Shown here one piece after another: positions 48,772 through 57,498 of a DNA stretch of 64,000 nucleotides. The DNA is taken from contig JAIZOF010000001.1 in the NCBI GenBank assembly GCA_020525365.1, forward strand, positions 1,015,456 to 1,079,455, in the 5' to 3' direction. A program made the translations under genes and the position numbers. The stretch comes from Sulfurovum sp. (GTDB lineage Bacteria; Campylobacterota; Campylobacteria; Campylobacterales; Sulfurovaceae). Every line of letters starts with the position of its first letter. Within the stretch, counting starts at the first letter, position 1. The notes below the pieces were generated by a model. That model saw only the letters and a list, made by a program, of their open reading frames with translations, ran no database searches and was not told the DNA's origin.

Positions 48772-50275
48772 ACCAATGGAGAGTTTGATCCTGGCTCAAG
48801 TGAACGCTGGCAGCGTGCTTAACACATGCTGAAGTCGGGTAAAGAACATTACAACACTTTAAATTGTCAGCTAAGTGGCCGGACAGGTGAAGTAATATAG
48901 CTAACAATGCCTTTGGAGGGGATAACGATTGGAAACGACTGCTCAAGTACCCGCCACCTTCTGTAGTAATTACAGTTGAAATGTTTTCATAAAGATCGGG
49001 CTATATGGTATCAGTGGTTGGTAGGTAGGCTCACCAAGCCAGCTGACGCCCTAGCTGGGTCTAGAAGAGGATGATCAGCCACACTGGAACTGAACACGGT
49101 CCAGACCTACGGGGAGGGCATGGTAGAATATTGCTGTAATGGAAATACGATGCAACAACGCCGCGTGGAGGATGACGCATTTCGGTGTGTGACTCCTTTT
49201 ATATGGGAAGATAATGACGGTACCAGTGAATAAGCACCGTAACTCCGTGCCAGCGGCCGCGACCAATACCGGAGGTACAAGCGTTGCACCTCAGAATCAC
49301 TGGGCGTAAAGCGCGCGCAGGCAGCCTCGATGGTTGGATCTTGAAGCCTGCACGGCTCAGCCGTGAACTGCGTCCAAAACTGTCGGGCTAGAGTCTGGGA
49401 GGGAAGATGGAATTAGTTGTGTAGGGTAAAATCGTAGAGATAACAGGAATGCAAAAGCAGAAGAAGGCGATCTTCTGGAACAGTACTGACGCTGAAGGCG
49501 CGGCGTGGGGAGCAAGCAAGTTAGATACCCTGGTGATCCGCTACAAATTGGATATTAGTCGTCAAGGTCCGTGACACCGGTGATGCAGCTAACGCATTAA
49601 ACGATCATATAGGGAGTACCGGTCATAAAGATTAAAACTCAAAGGAATGGGCGGGGACCCCGCTGAAGTGGTGGAGCATGTGGTTTAATTCGAAATGCGA
49701 AAAGACCGCCACCTGGCAGCAACATTGATGGAACCTGGTAGAGATACTGGGGTGCCTTTTAGAGCCTAGAAACAAATTACTGCGCATTTGGCTCGTCAGC
49801 TCGTGTCGTGAATGTTGGTTCAGTCCGCAACGAGCGCAACCCTCGTCACTAGTTACTAACGGTTCGGTAGGGACTCTGGTAGACTGCCTTCAACAGGAGG
49901 AGGAAGTAGAGGACGACGTCAAGTCATCATGGTACTTACAGTAAGAACTAACCTGTGCTACAATGGGTAGGACAATGGAACGCAATACCGCGAGAGTGGA
50001 GCAAATCTATAAACCTACTACTCTCGGTTCAGTTGTAGTCTGCAGCTCGACTACATGAAGGCTGGAATCCTTTAGTAATGTGAATCATGCTACAGTGAAA
50101 GATACGTTCCAGGTCTTGCTGCTACTGCCGCCCAGAAATCACTACATGGGAGGTTAGTTTCTGAAATGAGGAATGAGCTAAGCTACCTCCACGGTGGGAT
50201 CAACGACTGAATTGAGAAGTCAATAATAAAGTAACAAAGCCGGAGAGAACCCTGCACGGTTGGATCACCTCCTTT
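48772..50275 (+). rRNA. 16S rRNA gene with disrupted conserved sites
   Basis: The region has the length (about 1.5 kb) and order of a 16S gene, from GAGTTTGATCCTGGCTCA to the 3' end GGTTGGATCACCTCCTTT with an intact anti-Shine-Dalgarno. Universally conserved sites carry indels and substitutions. The 530 loop reads CCGCGACCAATACC instead of CCGCGGTAATAC. The 790 region reads CCTGGTGATCCG for CCTGGTAGTCC, and the 910 region GGAATGGGCGGGG for GGAATTGACGGGG. The 1400 decoding region reads CTGCCGCCCAGAAATCAC for ACACCGCCCGTCACAC, and GTCGTAACAAGG near 1490 is scrambled. As written it should not work. Assembly error across a multicopy gene is the likeliest cause. Boundaries are approximate. Confidence 0.8.
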
Positions 50276-50794
50276 CAAGGGTACATATACTCCATATGTC
50301 TCACAATATCCAATGGAGCAACATCAAAGGCTTGGTTGTTTGACATTGTGGCTTACCTCTTGGTTGATAAAGATCATTAGGATGCTGTTGTACATAACAG
50401 GCGTATCAGCTCTTCGGTTGAAGTGCACCTGATAAGGAGTGAGGTCCCAGGTTCAGAATCCTGGTGCCACCATTTAGCATTTTGTCTTGAAAAACTTAGC
50501 AAATACTTTATAAGATATTTGAGATTAGGTTTAAAACCTAAAGCTATTAACACTATTGTTGAAGTCTAACATGTGTACCAAACATTGATGAAAATTATTA
50601 TCAAATCCAAATCAAGTTTAAACAAGTTACAGTTAACAAGAAAATATTATCTGCGTATGTTATACAAGACGATAATAATCTTTCATGTCTAAAAACTCAA
50701 TAAACGTCTTTAACAAGACACTTATTAGTAACATTAACAGACCAACATTATTGTACACGTAAAGTTCATTTTGCATTATGCGGGGCGTACCTTA
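50276..50794 (+). other. 16S-23S internal transcribed spacer
   Basis: About 520 bases separating 16S and 23S. The only feature I can support is one tRNA-Ile-like gene (50399-50472). I do not see the tRNA-Ala that often accompanies it. The rest is AT-rich and without open frames of note. Confidence 0.7.
50399..50472 (+). tRNA. Degenerate tRNA-Ile (GAT)-like gene
   Basis: The anticodon-loop CTGATAA, a T-arm stem CCAGG/CCTGG and an encoded CCA end identify a tRNA-Ile in the usual rRNA-spacer position. The T loop has 8 nt (TTCAGAAT) instead of 7, the anticodon stem does not pair properly (TGCAC against GGAGTG), and the acceptor arms are not complementary. These look like single-base insertions and deletions in a normal tRNA-Ile, as in the neighbouring rRNAs. 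Confidence 0.65.
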
Positions 50795-53254
<2,460 letters not shown>

Positions 53255-53325
53255 TTGGAAGTCAAGCCTCCCATCGCCGATAATACTGCTGGCTACGCTA
53301 GTGGGAATGTAGGTCGCTGCCACTT
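53255..53325 (+). rRNA. 5S rRNA, 3' half only
   Basis: GAAGTCAAGCCTCCCATCG, CGATAATACTGCT and GGGAATGTAGGTCGCTGCC correspond to the second half of a Campylobacterota 5S gene. The first half and the 23S-5S spacer are absent, so the fragment is fused to the broken 23S. Confidence 0.7.
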
Positions 53326-53473
53326 TGAGATTTATCTTCTATAATACTTCTTTTTATAATCATGGTTTTTTTGTTTTTGTTATGTTTTTTATGAGAATTA
53401 AGGCTAGAATTAAACGCTGATACTCAGTGTCATTACGCTAAAATATGTTAATTTATTATTAATAGGATTATTA

Positions 53474-54382
53474 ATGTCTAAAAAGATTGCTTCTGCAAGA
53501 ATCATAACCGAAAGTTCAAAATTATTACAAGAATTAAATAACTCCTTATCCTTTGATAAAATACTTTATAGAGAGGATATAGAAGGATCTCGTGCACATG
53601 CCTATATGCTCAAAGAGCAAAAAGTTATTTCCAAAGAAGACTATGAGAAGATTGAAGCAGGCTTATGTGAAATATTGAAAGATATTGAAGAGGGTAAATT
53701 GAGTCTAGATGGCAATGATGAAGATATTCATATGGCAATAGAAGGAGAGCTGACACGTCGTATTGGTGATGCAGGAAAACGTCTACATACGGCACGTTCT
53801 CGTAATGATCAAGTAGCTCTTGATTTTAGACTCTATGTACAAAATAGTACCAAAGCTATTGCAGGCTTACTCTTGAAGAATATTGGTACACTTGTAAAAG
53901 TAGCAGAAGCTAATGTAGAGACAATATTACCTGGAATGACTCATCTTCAACATGCTCAACCAATTAACTTTGGATACCATATGATGGCATATGCGAGTAT
54001 GTTTAAGCGTGATTATGAGCGTTTTATGAGCTCTTATGAACGCAATAACTATTCTCCTATAGGCTGTGCAGCATTGGCTGGTACACCACATCCCATAGAT
54101 AGACAGATGACTTCCGATAAGTTAGGCTTTAACGCACCTACACTGAACTGTCTGGACACAGTTAGTGACCGTGACTTTGCCTTAGAGATACTTTTTAACA
54201 TCAGTACGATGATGATGCATATGAGTCGCCTGAGTGAAGAGCTCATTTTGTGGTCTGCGGCTGAGTTTAAGTGGGTAACACTAAGTGACAGACATGCTAC
54301 GGTGTGGGTTGCGTTGCGGCTGGCAGCTTCGAAGTCATCTGTCTGTCACGTAGGCTATTTCGGCGTTCATAAGAGCTCATAA
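53474..54382 (+). pseudogene. argH: Argininosuccinate lyase, 3' part replaced
   Basis: ArgH splits argininosuccinate into arginine and fumarate. The first about 270 residues are normal and in frame: [65 protein letters not shown]. After SDRHAT (about 54300) the frame continues into unrelated sequence for about 27 codons and stops. The family signature GSSxMPQKKNP and the last roughly 190 residues are missing. The replacing DNA contains a perfect inverted copy of 53903-54043. As assembled the enzyme cannot work. Confidence 0.88.
53903..54043 (+). repeat. Inverted repeat arm 1, inside argH
   Basis: This 141-bp part of argH is identical to the reverse complement of 54363-54503. It is the original copy, because it is in the correct coding context. 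Confidence 0.97.
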
Positions 54383-54503
54383 AACGCTCATAATCACGCT
54401 TAAACATACTCGCATATGCCATCATATGGTATCCAAAGTTAATTGGTTGAGCATGTTGAAGATGAGTCATTCCAGGTAATATTGTCTCTACATTAGCTTC
54501 TGC
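54363..54503 (-). repeat. Inverted repeat arm 2, fold-back copy of argH
   Basis: An exact reverse-complement copy of 53903-54043, 319 nt away. Between the arms, 54285-54349 also shows a small inverted pair (GTGACAGAC with GTCTGTCAC), and GTCATCTGTCT echoes argH sequence near 54100 in reverse. The pattern is that of a noisy hairpin (fold-back) joined to the gene. Confidence 0.97.
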
Positions 54504-54542
54504 GGATGTTTTGATATTTGGGTATTATTTTGGTTTAAATTT

Positions 54543-54570
54543 AAGGTGCTGTGGCAACAGCACCCTACGG
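54543..54570 (-). repeat. REP copy 1
   Basis: GGTGCTGT-GGCA-ACAGCACC hairpin followed by CTAC. Read on the minus strand it begins with the GTAG foot. Confidence 0.85.
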
Positions 54571-54609
54571 TTGGTTATTGAAATATAATTTTCTATTTGT
54601 GAAAGTTTT

Positions 54610-54634
54610 GTAGGGTGCGGTTGCTACCGCACCT
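54610..54634 (+). repeat. REP copy 2
   Basis: GTAG foot, then hairpin GGTGCGGT-TGCT-ACCGCACC. Compared with the other copies one stem pair has changed on both sides (T-A to G-C), keeping the helix. Confidence 0.85.
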
Positions 54635-54739
54635 TTGGGAATGTGGATTGATGTCACGGTTTATTTTGTTTGAAATATATGGCGGGGAATGTTCTTATTT
54701 TGACCATTGAATCAATCGTTTATTTTTGCTTATAGTGAA

Positions 54740-54767
54740 GGTGCTGTGGCAACAGCACCCTACGGGT
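54740..54767 (-). repeat. REP copy 3
   Basis: Same sequence as copy 1 (GGTGCTGT-GGCA-ACAGCACC, then CTAC), minus orientation, about 78 nt before the transposase start. Confidence 0.85.
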
Positions 54768-54844
54768 AATTTGTATTCAAAATAAAAAACATGTCAATAT
54801 GCCATATTTTTAACCATAATCTCATATCTTCGTTACACTTCAAC

Positions 54845-55291
54845 ATGGCAAAATATAAACGACTCTTTTTGGCTGGACATAGCTACTACATTACTATGGT
54901 GACACATAAACGTAATCCATTGTTGGTAGACAATATTGGACTATTGCGTGAGAGCTTTCGTGAAAGTAAAAGGTATTTCGCTTATAGCATAGATGCTATT
55001 GTCATTATGCCTGACCATATACATATGATAATCACACCTGAATATGTGATGGATTATCCTAAAATCATCAAAGCTATTAAATATAATTTTTCAAGACACT
55101 TTAATGTGGAAGAAGAACAATCATATAGTAGATATAAACGGAAACTCAAACCGATATGGCAGAAACGGTATTATGAACATACGATACGAGATGAAAAAGA
55201 TTATCTACGTTGTTTGGAATATATGGAGAATAATCCATTGAAACATGGGTATGTGGATAATGGTGAGGTATGGGAATATATGTCTCTGTAG
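54845..55291 (+). CDS. REP-associated tyrosine transposase (RAYT)
   Basis: A 148-residue Y1 transposase of the TnpA-REP/IS200-like superfamily, which cuts and joins single-stranded REP hairpins. It has the HUH motif MPDHIHMI (H58, H60), a later KRYYEHTIRDEKD segment typical of the family, and the probable catalytic Tyr126 in LEYMENNPLKHGYV. I start at MAKYKRLF; an ATG 18 codons upstream gives an extension with no family similarity. The TAG stop codon is shared with the GTAG foot of REP copy 4. Confidence 0.9.
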   Translation: MAKYKRLFLAGHSYYITMVTHKRNPLLVDNIGLLRESFRESKRYFAYSIDAIVIMPDHIHMIITPEYVMDYPKIIKAIKYNFSRHFNVEEEQSYSRYKRKLKPIWQKRYYEHTIRDEKDYLRCLEYMENNPLKHGYVDNGEVWEYMSL

Positions 55292-55313
55292 GGTGCTGTT
55301 GCTACAGCACCTT
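55288..55313 (+). repeat. REP copy 4, overlapping the RAYT stop codon
   Basis: GTAG foot and hairpin GGTGCTGT-TGCT-ACAGCACC, plus orientation. The TAG of the foot is the stop codon of the transposase gene. Confidence 0.85.
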
Positions 55314-55357
55314 CACTCCAATATGCAATAGAACTTTTTTCTTTATGTCAATTTATG

Positions 55358-55385
55358 AAGGTGCTGTGGCAACAGCACCCTACGG
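55358..55385 (-). repeat. REP copy 5
   Basis: Same sequence as copies 1 and 3, minus orientation. It directly precedes the stop codon of the truncated DsbA-like gene. Confidence 0.85.
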
Positions 55386-55390
55386 GATTT

Positions 55391-55600
55391 TTATATCTTC
55401 AAAATCTCCTCTAAACTCCTATACCCACTCAGACATACCATATGCCCATCTTCATCTATCTTGACTGTGGAGGGGAAGGCATTGGCTCCCATGGAACGGG
55501 CTTTACTGAAGTTGTGTTGCATGAGGAGTTCTGCTCGGTCTGATTGGTAGAAGTCAAGGAATGTATTTTTATCTTCTTTGACATAAGCACAAAGTACATC
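55391..55600 (-). pseudogene. C-terminal fragment of a DsbA-family oxidoreductase
   Basis: On the minus strand about 70 codons end at a TAA and read ...DVLCAYVKEDKNTFLDFYQ..., FSKARSMGANAFPSTVKID and a final SGYRSLEEILKI. The cis-proline segment AFPSTVKID and the overall pattern fit the C-terminus of DsbA/FrnE-like thioredoxin-fold proteins. There is no N-terminal half with the CxxC site: upstream, the sequence runs into the start of the ABC-F gene. Only the stump remains. The 5' boundary is approximate. Confidence 0.65.
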
Positions 55601-55659
55601 TATACTACAGTATATTTCGATATAATCCCAAAAAATTATTACTATGACAGAGTACCAAT

Positions 55660-57498
55660 ATGATACAACTTACCAATCTCTGTAAAAGCTTCGGTGGACA
55701 AATACTCTTTAATGATGTAAACTTTAAGATGCAAAGCCAACAAAAAATAGGTTTTGTTGGACGTAACGGTTCTGGGAAATCTACACTCTTTAAGATGATA
55801 CTTGGAGAAGAGAGTCATGACAGTGGGTCTATCAGCATTCCTAAAAACTACCGCATAGGGACACTTAAACAACACCTTGTGTTTACAGAGACTACGGTAC
55901 GTGAAGAGTGTGCATTGGTATTGCCAGAAGATGAGCAGTGGAACTTTTATAAGATAGAAAAGCTTTTGTTTGGTCTTGGGTTTTCTGAGGCAGACTTGAA
56001 CAAAAACCCTTTGAGCTTTTCTGGTGGGTATCAGATACGTATTAACCTTGTGAAATTACTAGCAACAGAACCAAACATGTTACTACTCGATGAGCCTACT
56101 AACTACTTAGATATTATCTCTCTTAGATGGCTTAGAGGGTTCATAAAAGAGTTTGATGGTGAAGTGATACTCATTACCCACGATAGAGACTTTATGGACT
56201 CTGTGACGACGCATACAATGGGTGTACAGCGTAAAGGACTACACATTGTGCGTGGTGACAGCTACAAGTACTACGGTACACTAGAGCTAGCAGATGAAAC
56301 GTACGAAAAAACCAAAGCCAACCAAGACAAAAAGCGTAAAGAGCTTGAAGAGTTCGTGGCACGCAATAAGGCTAGAGCCTCAACTGCAGCTCTGGCACAG
56401 TCTAAACAAAAAGAGTTAGACAAGATGGAAGAGATGGAAGACTTGGCAACGGATGCAAACCTCTCTTTTAACTTTAACTATAAAGATACCCCTGCAAAGA
56501 TACTCTTCCGTGCGAATGAGCTGAGTTTTGGGTATAACCCTGATGAGCCATTGTTTCATCATATTACTTTTGCGATGGAGAAGGGTAAACGTCTTGCTAT
56601 CATTGGTAAAAATGGTAAGGGTAAATCTACTTTGCTTAACTATATTGCAGGTGAATTTGGTGAGCAACAAAGGAGCCTAGAATTTCACCCCTCTACCGTC
56701 TTTGCACACTTTGGGCAGACAAATATAGAAAGACTCAATACCAAAGTGACTATTGTTGAAGAGATAGCATCTATGTCTAAAGAGGTGGGGATACCTCAGG
56801 CGCGTAACATAGCTGGGCGTATGATGTTCAGTGGAGAGTTGGGTGACAAGAAGATAGAGGTGCTCTCTGGTGGAGAGCGAAGTAGAGTGATGTTAGGGAA
56901 GATTATTGCAACACCTGCGAACCTACTCCTTTTGGATGAGCCTACCAACCACCTAGATATGCAGTCGATAGATGCCCTTGCAGATGCCATCGATGCTTTC
57001 GAGGGTTCACTTATTATGGTAACACACTCGGAGATGTTATTGCATAGACTTGCCGATGCACTCATCATTTTTCATAAGGGTGGGGCAGAGTATTTTGATG
57101 GTACGTATGCGGATTTCTTGGAGAAGATAGGCTGGGAAGAGGAAGAGGGAAACATAAAACCTAAAAAGAAAAAGCCTAAAATAGACTATAAAGAACGCAA
57201 AAAACTTCGTAAAGCAGCAACAAAAGAGCGCAACGAAGAGCGTAAGCCTTACTCCAAAGAGATAAAAGAGTGTGAAGAGAAGATAGAGAAGCTTGAAGTT
57301 GAGATGGCTAAGAAAAATGAGATTTTAATGGAAGCTTCAAAGAAAGGTGATAATGGTGCCATTATGGAGATGTCTAAAGAGGTAGGGCTTGTGCAACAAG
57401 AGATAGATGCCTTGTTTGAGAGACTTGAGATTGCTTCTGAGTTGGATGAGGAGATAGTGGCAAAGTATGAGTTGAAGTTACAAGAGATAGATGCTTAA
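55660..57498 (+). CDS. ABC-F family ATPase (ribosome-associated type)
   Basis: A 612-residue soluble protein with two ABC domains and no membrane segments. Domain 1 has Walker A GRNGSGKST (residues 34-42), a slightly altered signature SFSGGYQIR and Walker B LLLDEPTNYLD. A charged linker follows (about residues 225-265). Domain 2 has Walker A GKNGKGKST, signature LSGGERSR and Walker B LLLDEPTNHLD. A Lys/Glu-rich C-terminal coiled coil (about 505-612) resembles Uup/YheS-type proteins. These act on stalled ribosomes or as translation factors; resistance cannot be inferred. The frame is clean, so sequence quality recovers here. Confidence 0.9.
   Translation: MIQLTNLCKSFGGQILFNDVNFKMQSQQKIGFVGRNGSGKSTLFKMILGEESHDSGSISIPKNYRIGTLKQHLVFTETTVREECALVLPEDEQWNFYKIEKLLFGLGFSEADLNKNPLSFSGGYQIRINLVKLLATEPNMLLLDEPTNYLDIISLRWLRGFIKEFDGEVILITHDRDFMDSVTTHTMGVQRKGLHIVRGDSYKYYGTLELADETYEKTKANQDKKRKELEEFVARNKARASTAALAQSKQKELDKMEEMEDLATDANLSFNFNYKDTPAKILFRANELSFGYNPDEPLFHHITFAMEKGKRLAIIGKNGKGKSTLLNYIAGEFGEQQRSLEFHPSTVFAHFGQTNIERLNTKVTIVEEIASMSKEVGIPQARNIAGRMMFSGELGDKKIEVLSGGERSRVMLGKIIATPANLLLLDEPTNHLDMQSIDALADAIDAFEGSLIMVTHSEMLLHRLADALIIFHKGGAEYFDGTYADFLEKIGWEEEEGNIKPKKKKPKIDYKERKKLRKAATKERNEERKPYSKEIKECEEKIEKLEVEMAKKNEILMEASKKGDNGAIMEMSKEVGLVQQEIDALFERLEIASELDEEIVAKYELKLQEIDA

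Follow-up and report, generated by a model that had tools for sequence, protein, structure and literature searches.

The locus described here is very probably a REPtron, in which a single-copy chromosomal gene for a RAYT (TnpAREP), a domesticated relative of the enzymes of jumping genes, is accompanied by its cognate GTAG-type REPs, the likely targets of the enzyme, in a small alternating array. It lies in a 64,000-nucleotide stretch of a Sulfurovum sp. genome (GCA_020525365.1, contig JAIZOF010000001.1), hereafter the window, to which all coordinates refer unless another locus is named. Five 24-nt GTAG-footed hairpins occupy positions 54545–55383 in the order −, +, −, +, − around an intact RAYT gene (Table 1), within 2 bp of the limits (54543–55385) given in a preliminary description of this DNA. 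Each of the five consists of an unpaired GTAG foot, a perfect 8-bp stem and a 4-nt loop; in every copy, the stem carries CACCTT at its 3′ foot. Copies 3 and 4 bracket the gene as inverted REPs with their GTAG ends pointing inward, and the stop codon of the gene is the TAG of the copy 4 foot. Together, copies 4 and 5 make an inverted doublet of 96 bp whose GTAG ends lie outside. Copy 2 differs from the other four by a T-A to G-C replacement at stem positions 10/19. Both plus copies have the loop TGCT, and the loop of the three minus copies is TGCC. Pattern searches, shuffles and strand order bear out the preliminary description of five alternating hairpins around a Y1 transposase gene; its paired swap, which keeps the stem of copy 2, and its separate loop in the plus copies also hold, the latter within the window.

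Table 1. Components of the REP–RAYT unit, in window coordinates.
Feature	Position	Strand	Description
REP copy 1	54545..54568	−	GTAG foot; 8-bp stem GGTGCTGT; loop TGCC
REP copy 2	54610..54633	+	stem GGTGCGGT, G-C replacing T-A; loop TGCT
REP copy 3	54740..54763	−	stem GGTGCTGT; loop TGCC; GTAG end towards RAYT gene
RAYT (TnpAREP-like Y1 HuH endonuclease)	54845..55291	+	148 aa from likely start
REP copy 4	55288..55311	+	stem GGTGCTGT; loop TGCT; GTAG foot overlaps RAYT stop
REP copy 5	55360..55383	−	stem GGTGCTGT; loop TGCC

A search of the window with the REP pattern at up to two mismatches returned six matches (the five copies, and copy 1 again on the opposite strand with two mismatches), against none when the window was shuffled 100 times with its dinucleotides preserved. 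When the copies are folded as single-stranded DNA, the hairpin described above forms in each, with energies of −8.9 to −10.1 kcal/mol and z values of −3.70 to −5.35. A broader scan of the window for GTAG hairpins with mismatches yielded many chance-like hairpins and was dropped as uninformative. That the five are chance repeats without functional link to the gene, a reading that draws on the lack of further copies in the genome itself, is contradicted by the empty shuffles and refuted by the relatives, in which these repeats occur both next to RAYTs and at dispersed sites; its probability is practically nil.

The RAYT reading frame is open from 54791 to 55291 (166 aa). TGA stops interrupt the 18-residue N-terminal extension at four related loci (L010, L011, L012 and L015), the frame being open there at L007 and L008; because of these stops, the true start is probably 54845 and the first 18 residues are untranslated. 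The protein scores 146.5 bits against a cut-off of 80 with the NCBIfam equivalog model REP_Tyr_transpos (NF047646.1; 4.9e-43), and the ORF at 54791–55291 matches Pfam Y1_Tnp (1.6e-13). Its best match among solved structures is E. coli TnpArep (4er8, 1.8e-17), with the HuH, W-Q and Y..NP motifs aligned. These matches uphold the earlier call of a REP–RAYT unit. In the numbering of the 166-aa frame, the HuH motif is DHIH at 75–78, accompanied by the W-Q motif and by Tyr144 in YMENNP. HuH together with a single catalytic tyrosine in a Y---NP context, rather than Y---Q, corresponds to class 2 under the rule in PMC6006769. The W-Q motif is the one tabulated there for subclass 2.5/group 3, and the set of DHIH, WQ and YMENNP is identical neither to the group 2 nor to the group 3 row of Table 1, nor to any tabulated subclass.

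A Y1 transposase with flanking hairpins, whose neighbours here are a broken argH and a dsbA-like fragment, might also be taken for an IS200/IS605-type insertion sequence that carries subterminal hairpins and has arrived recently or is still mobile. Such an origin is very improbable. The RAYT is the sole PF01797 match in the genome and hence single-copy, and it is found in related neighbourhoods in three relatives. The IS200 transposase model NF033573 reaches 44.1 bits, below its own cut-off of 55, whereas the REP transposase model lies well above its own. By eye, no tnpB-like gene was seen among the ORFs at 52–58 kb.

The RAYT gene is under purifying selection: in comparisons with the RAYTs at L007, L008 and L009, dN is 0.083–0.099 and dS 0.90–1.16, giving dN/dS of about 0.07–0.11. 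These three are the nearest RAYTs, 82–85% identical to that of the window. Faster evolution of the RAYT than of its neighbours was considered and is no general trend here; with L007, RAYT and argH are each 84% identical, and RAYT identity compares with that of ABC-F as 85% versus 93% with L009 and 82% versus 87% with L008.

The unit of the window is bordered by a truncated argH on one side and a C-terminal dsbA-like fragment on the other, with an ABC-F gene close by; neighbouring genes were named from their translations, only the argH and RAYT of the window having been matched to models. L007 has argH first, then small genes, the RAYT, a SelO-like gene and a dsbA-like gene, the RAYT being within a few kilobases of both argH and the dsbA-like gene. 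L009 reads RAYT, REP, a dsbA-like gene with broken frame, other genes and ABC-F, and L008 reads RAYT, an OsmC-like gene and ABC-F. The recognisably related neighbourhoods of the L007, L008 and L009 RAYTs point to vertical inheritance. At L169, argH and ABC-F are parted by one CYTH-like gene, and the genome that holds this locus (G006) gave no RAYT match.

Two further observations concern these neighbours. The DsbA-like C-terminal fragment at 55388–55600 (−) lacks its 5′ part, and a full-length ORF containing some N is present at L007. At L007 2456–2695 there is a second partial argH 3′ end, approximately 0.75 kb downstream of the full-length argH, and three small ORFs lie between the two. In this genus, the 3′ region of argH may be a hot spot for insertion or recombination.

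The surroundings of the unit call for some caution as to the assembly. The window argH (53474–54503) is cut after about residue 275, its profile match ending at 273 of 455, and the gene is full length (462 aa) at L007 and L169. Positions 54363–54503 are an inverted copy of 53903–54043, 141 bp long and 100% identical. A profile search of the genome found no C-terminal part of argH elsewhere; argG is intact.

The genome holds two 16S/23S pairs, one at 48773–53357 (+) of the window and the other at L184 1640–6276. The window 16S and 23S score 520.5 and 836.5 bits, against 1553.6 and 2810.8 for a relative of the same genus, and the only other 16S in the genome, in the second operon, scores 433.6 bits, with a 23S of 950.6 bits. 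Compared with the relative, the two 16S copies reach 77% and 76% identity, and compared with each other 65%; positions conserved in nearly all bacteria are among those altered. The second operon retains a recognisable tRNA-Ala and 5S, which speaks against uniform noise. In the 16S–23S spacer of the window, a damaged tRNA-Ile look-alike was seen by eye at 50400–50475; ARAGORN found no tRNA in the whole 64-kb window, and Rfam no 5S after the window 23S.

Real divergence of this extent in 16S and 23S would be extraordinary. Because a cell living on these rRNAs alone is very unlikely, both copies are probably assembly errors. The argH truncation and fold-back may likewise be a misassembly of the same origin as the rRNA damage, or else a real fold-back rearrangement. 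Breakage of argH by the unit itself was considered and set aside, since approximately 40 bp separate the end of the fold-back from REP copy 1 and the assembly around the unit is doubtful. The surroundings of the unit may thus be misassembled; the unit, with its intact ORF and perfect stems, shows no such damage.

The genome comprises 1,466,071 bases in two contigs and is 99.86% complete. Searched with the exact pattern, it contains only the five copies at the locus rather than many dispersed extragenic ones, which counts against the REPtron reading. At up to three mismatches there are 22 matches on both strands; the RAYT locus accounts for 10, and the other 12 lie elsewhere and have two or three mismatches. 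Against these 12, the reversed pattern, used as a control, gave two. The 12 off-locus matches were rejected as REP copies: by eye, none has both the GTAG foot and all 8 bp of the stem, and several represent one site read on both strands or duplicated DNA. As this genome has its REPs at the RAYT locus only, dispersal in it has either not begun or been lost. The genome-wide search suggested in the preliminary description therefore has a divided outcome, with no further copies in the genome itself and dispersed copies in relatives.

The REP family is present in 10 of 60 genomes, this one included (9 of 59 relatives); the ten are among 37 genomes of the same genus, and none is among the 23 that share only the order. 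Relatives with the family carry 1–40 copies each. Among neighbouring REPs within 150 bp of each other in the nine relatives, those beside RAYTs included, the GTAG ends are outside in 27 of 29 pairs and inside in two; a span of 93–104 bp is seen in 18 of the 27. Among these relatives, G010, G013 and G028 encode RAYTs 71–84% identical to that of the window, and the RAYTs of G008, G019 and G022 are 50–54% identical to it. In the remaining three, G021, G030 and G033 (75%, 99% and 72% complete, respectively), no RAYT match was found; G030 carries a single copy of the family. The REP family and a close RAYT thus do not always co-occur, which counts against the REPtron reading. The RAYTs of G024, 52–60% identical to that of the window, go with GGTGTGCA- and GGTGTTGT-type stems.

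Such hairpins also gather around other RAYTs. Within 600 bp of 38 RAYT loci, the window included, a stem of 6 bp or more begins at 116 of 188 GTAGG sites, compared with 14 of 262 sites farther off at the same loci without the window. Hairpins with a GTAG foot recur on either strand near RAYTs of different stem families; by eye, the stem and loop types broadly track the clades of the RAYT tree. At the 27 loci (window included) with perfect hairpins on both sides, the two nearest REPs are inverted in only 18, imperfect copies being excluded from this count; this too counts against the REPtron reading.

Within loci, hairpins of the same orientation resemble each other more than those of opposite orientation, none of 5000 permutations reaching the observed difference over 21 loci (at least three hairpins each, with both orientations represented; detected perfect hairpins only, some loci being near relatives of each other). 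At 15 of the 21, no sequence is common to both orientations. Heterodimers with unlike REPs in opposite orientations are described in PMC3733652. The loop-by-orientation pattern of the window was rejected as a conserved rule, with counter-examples at L007, L008, L009 and L013. TGCC occurs in plus copies at L007 and L009 (imperfect copies) and at L013, and TGCT in minus copies at L008 and L009.

It is also conceivable that the hairpins act as bidirectional transcription terminators or mRNA 3′ stabilisers, with selection on the RNA hairpin and not on recognition by the RAYT. Copy 4 sits exactly at the RAYT stop codon, and REPs have been proposed as RNA elements (PMC3733652). Against this, no site combining a hairpin with a T run was found in 54200–55700, and GTAG hairpins occur in both orientations at RAYTs of different stem families, with stem types that broadly follow the RAYT clades (by eye). 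We therefore regard a role in RNA as improbable.

Selection on the hairpin as a structure is addressed by covariation. Two stem pairs only, 10-19 and 11-18, were tested, since the search pattern fixes the other six, and 78 of 117 places were used, 39 copies of one stem type from G010 being left out. Pair 10-19 is Watson–Crick in 73 of the 78 (maximum of 2000 shuffles, 57) and pair 11-18 in 77 (maximum, 48), in rows that are not independent because copies within one genome probably share descent. The GG/CC stem type of copy 2 and the TG/CA type of the other four each occur in six genomes, this one included. As the G-C stem type is found in five other relatives, the swap in copy 2 need not be compensation in situ; it can reflect two repeat lineages meeting at one locus rather than mutation and compensation on the spot. 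A single swap at one locus is thus weak evidence for selection. Of the earlier claim that covariation implies selection on the structure, the covariation is borne out genus-wide at these two pairs, and the swap within the locus is weaker evidence than was claimed. A fixed-register table of 97 GTAGGGTG sites in RAYT flanks (49–82 of 97 paired, depending on position) was not used; because REPs that differ in stem length and loop are combined in it, it is no covariation test.

A perfect stem is not universal in these systems, because the REPs of a sister RAYT clade carry a fixed, uncompensated G.A mismatch. This clade comprises the RAYTs at L010, L011, L012, L013 and L016 (support 99/96), and its flanking REPs read GTAGGGGGC...GCACC. 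By our count, G stands opposite A at stem pair 7-22 in 21 of 23 copies, the other two being one with a different mismatch and one perfect. The G.A-type repeat is present in 6 of the 60 genomes, including copies across many contigs. RAYTs of the perfect-stem and G.A-mismatch groups are 61–72% identical to each other.

By analogy with the E. coli and S. maltophilia TnpAREP enzymes, whose binding, CT cleavage and strand transfer are described in PMC8266576, the window RAYT would bind the GTAG strand of the single-stranded REP hairpin. The cut would be guided by GTAG and fall at a nearby CT dinucleotide, through a 5′-phosphotyrosine on Tyr144. Such cleavage, with strand transfer, would let REP doublets be copied or moved; we infer on this basis that binding, cleavage and mobilisation of its REPs may be expected of the enzyme.

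The E. coli REPtron (TnpAREP/yafM; y, z1 and z2 REPs; 4er8; group 2) shares the Y1 HuH enzyme and the GTAG foot with the window. E. coli REPs are dispersed in hundreds of copies. The window differs in having stems that are perfect 8-bp palindromes and no dispersed REPs. E. coli REPs need a bulge or irregularity in the stem (PMC8266576). Flanking REPs of two types are common to both systems, those of E. coli being Y and Z2 (PMC2817692).

REPtron Sm of S. maltophilia, with its group 3 TnpAREP, is described in PMC8266576 as having GTAG, a perfect 8-bp palindrome and a tiny loop, like the window, the loop being the 3-nt GCT there and the 4-nt TGCY here. According to the same source, cleavage in the S. 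maltophilia system is impaired or almost lost when the stem carries a mismatch. The REPINs of Pseudomonas fluorescens (PMC3116915) are inverted REP doublets, comparable with the doublets of about 100 bp in the Sulfurovum relatives; unlike P. fluorescens, the genome of the window has no dispersed population.

Di Nocera et al. (2013; PMC3733652) report GTAG REPs in all divisions of the Proteobacteria, from alpha to epsilon. Sulfurovum sp. NBC37-1, the same kind of bacterium as that of the window, is listed there with GTAG and CGTC repeats together and as also encoding tyrosine transposases, the available text of that paper not stating that GTAG repeats flank them. The preliminary view that such a unit is less familiar in Campylobacterota is accordingly only partly right. 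A literature search, with most subscription journals outside its coverage, found no binding or cleavage data for any Campylobacterota RAYT and nothing on RAYTs in Campylobacter or on repetitive extragenic palindromes in Epsilonproteobacteria; for a REP-associated tyrosine transposase in Sulfurovum, it found only PMC3733652. Paired stem changes and RAYT–REP co-evolution have also been reported (PMC2817692).

Being of a known kind already reported in the same bacterial group, the unit is mostly ordinary. With it, the REP–RAYT record gains a well-resolved Campylobacterota branch and a stem covariation test in which neither side of the tested pairs was fixed by the search. Related RAYTs with perfect and with mismatched REPs are useful to specialists mapping recognition, and ordinary for general readers. 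As a tentative proposal, which we think has a rather small chance of being correct, Sulfurovum RAYTs may form a natural series from perfect-stem REPs, as in the clade of the window, to fixed-G.A REPs. If this is true, the switch between recognition of perfect palindromes and of irregular stems, which now separates different TnpAREP groups, could be traceable to a few residue changes. In parallel, the window RAYT would have been kept by purifying selection in a genome without dispersed REPs, and a host function independent of REP dispersal would be implied.
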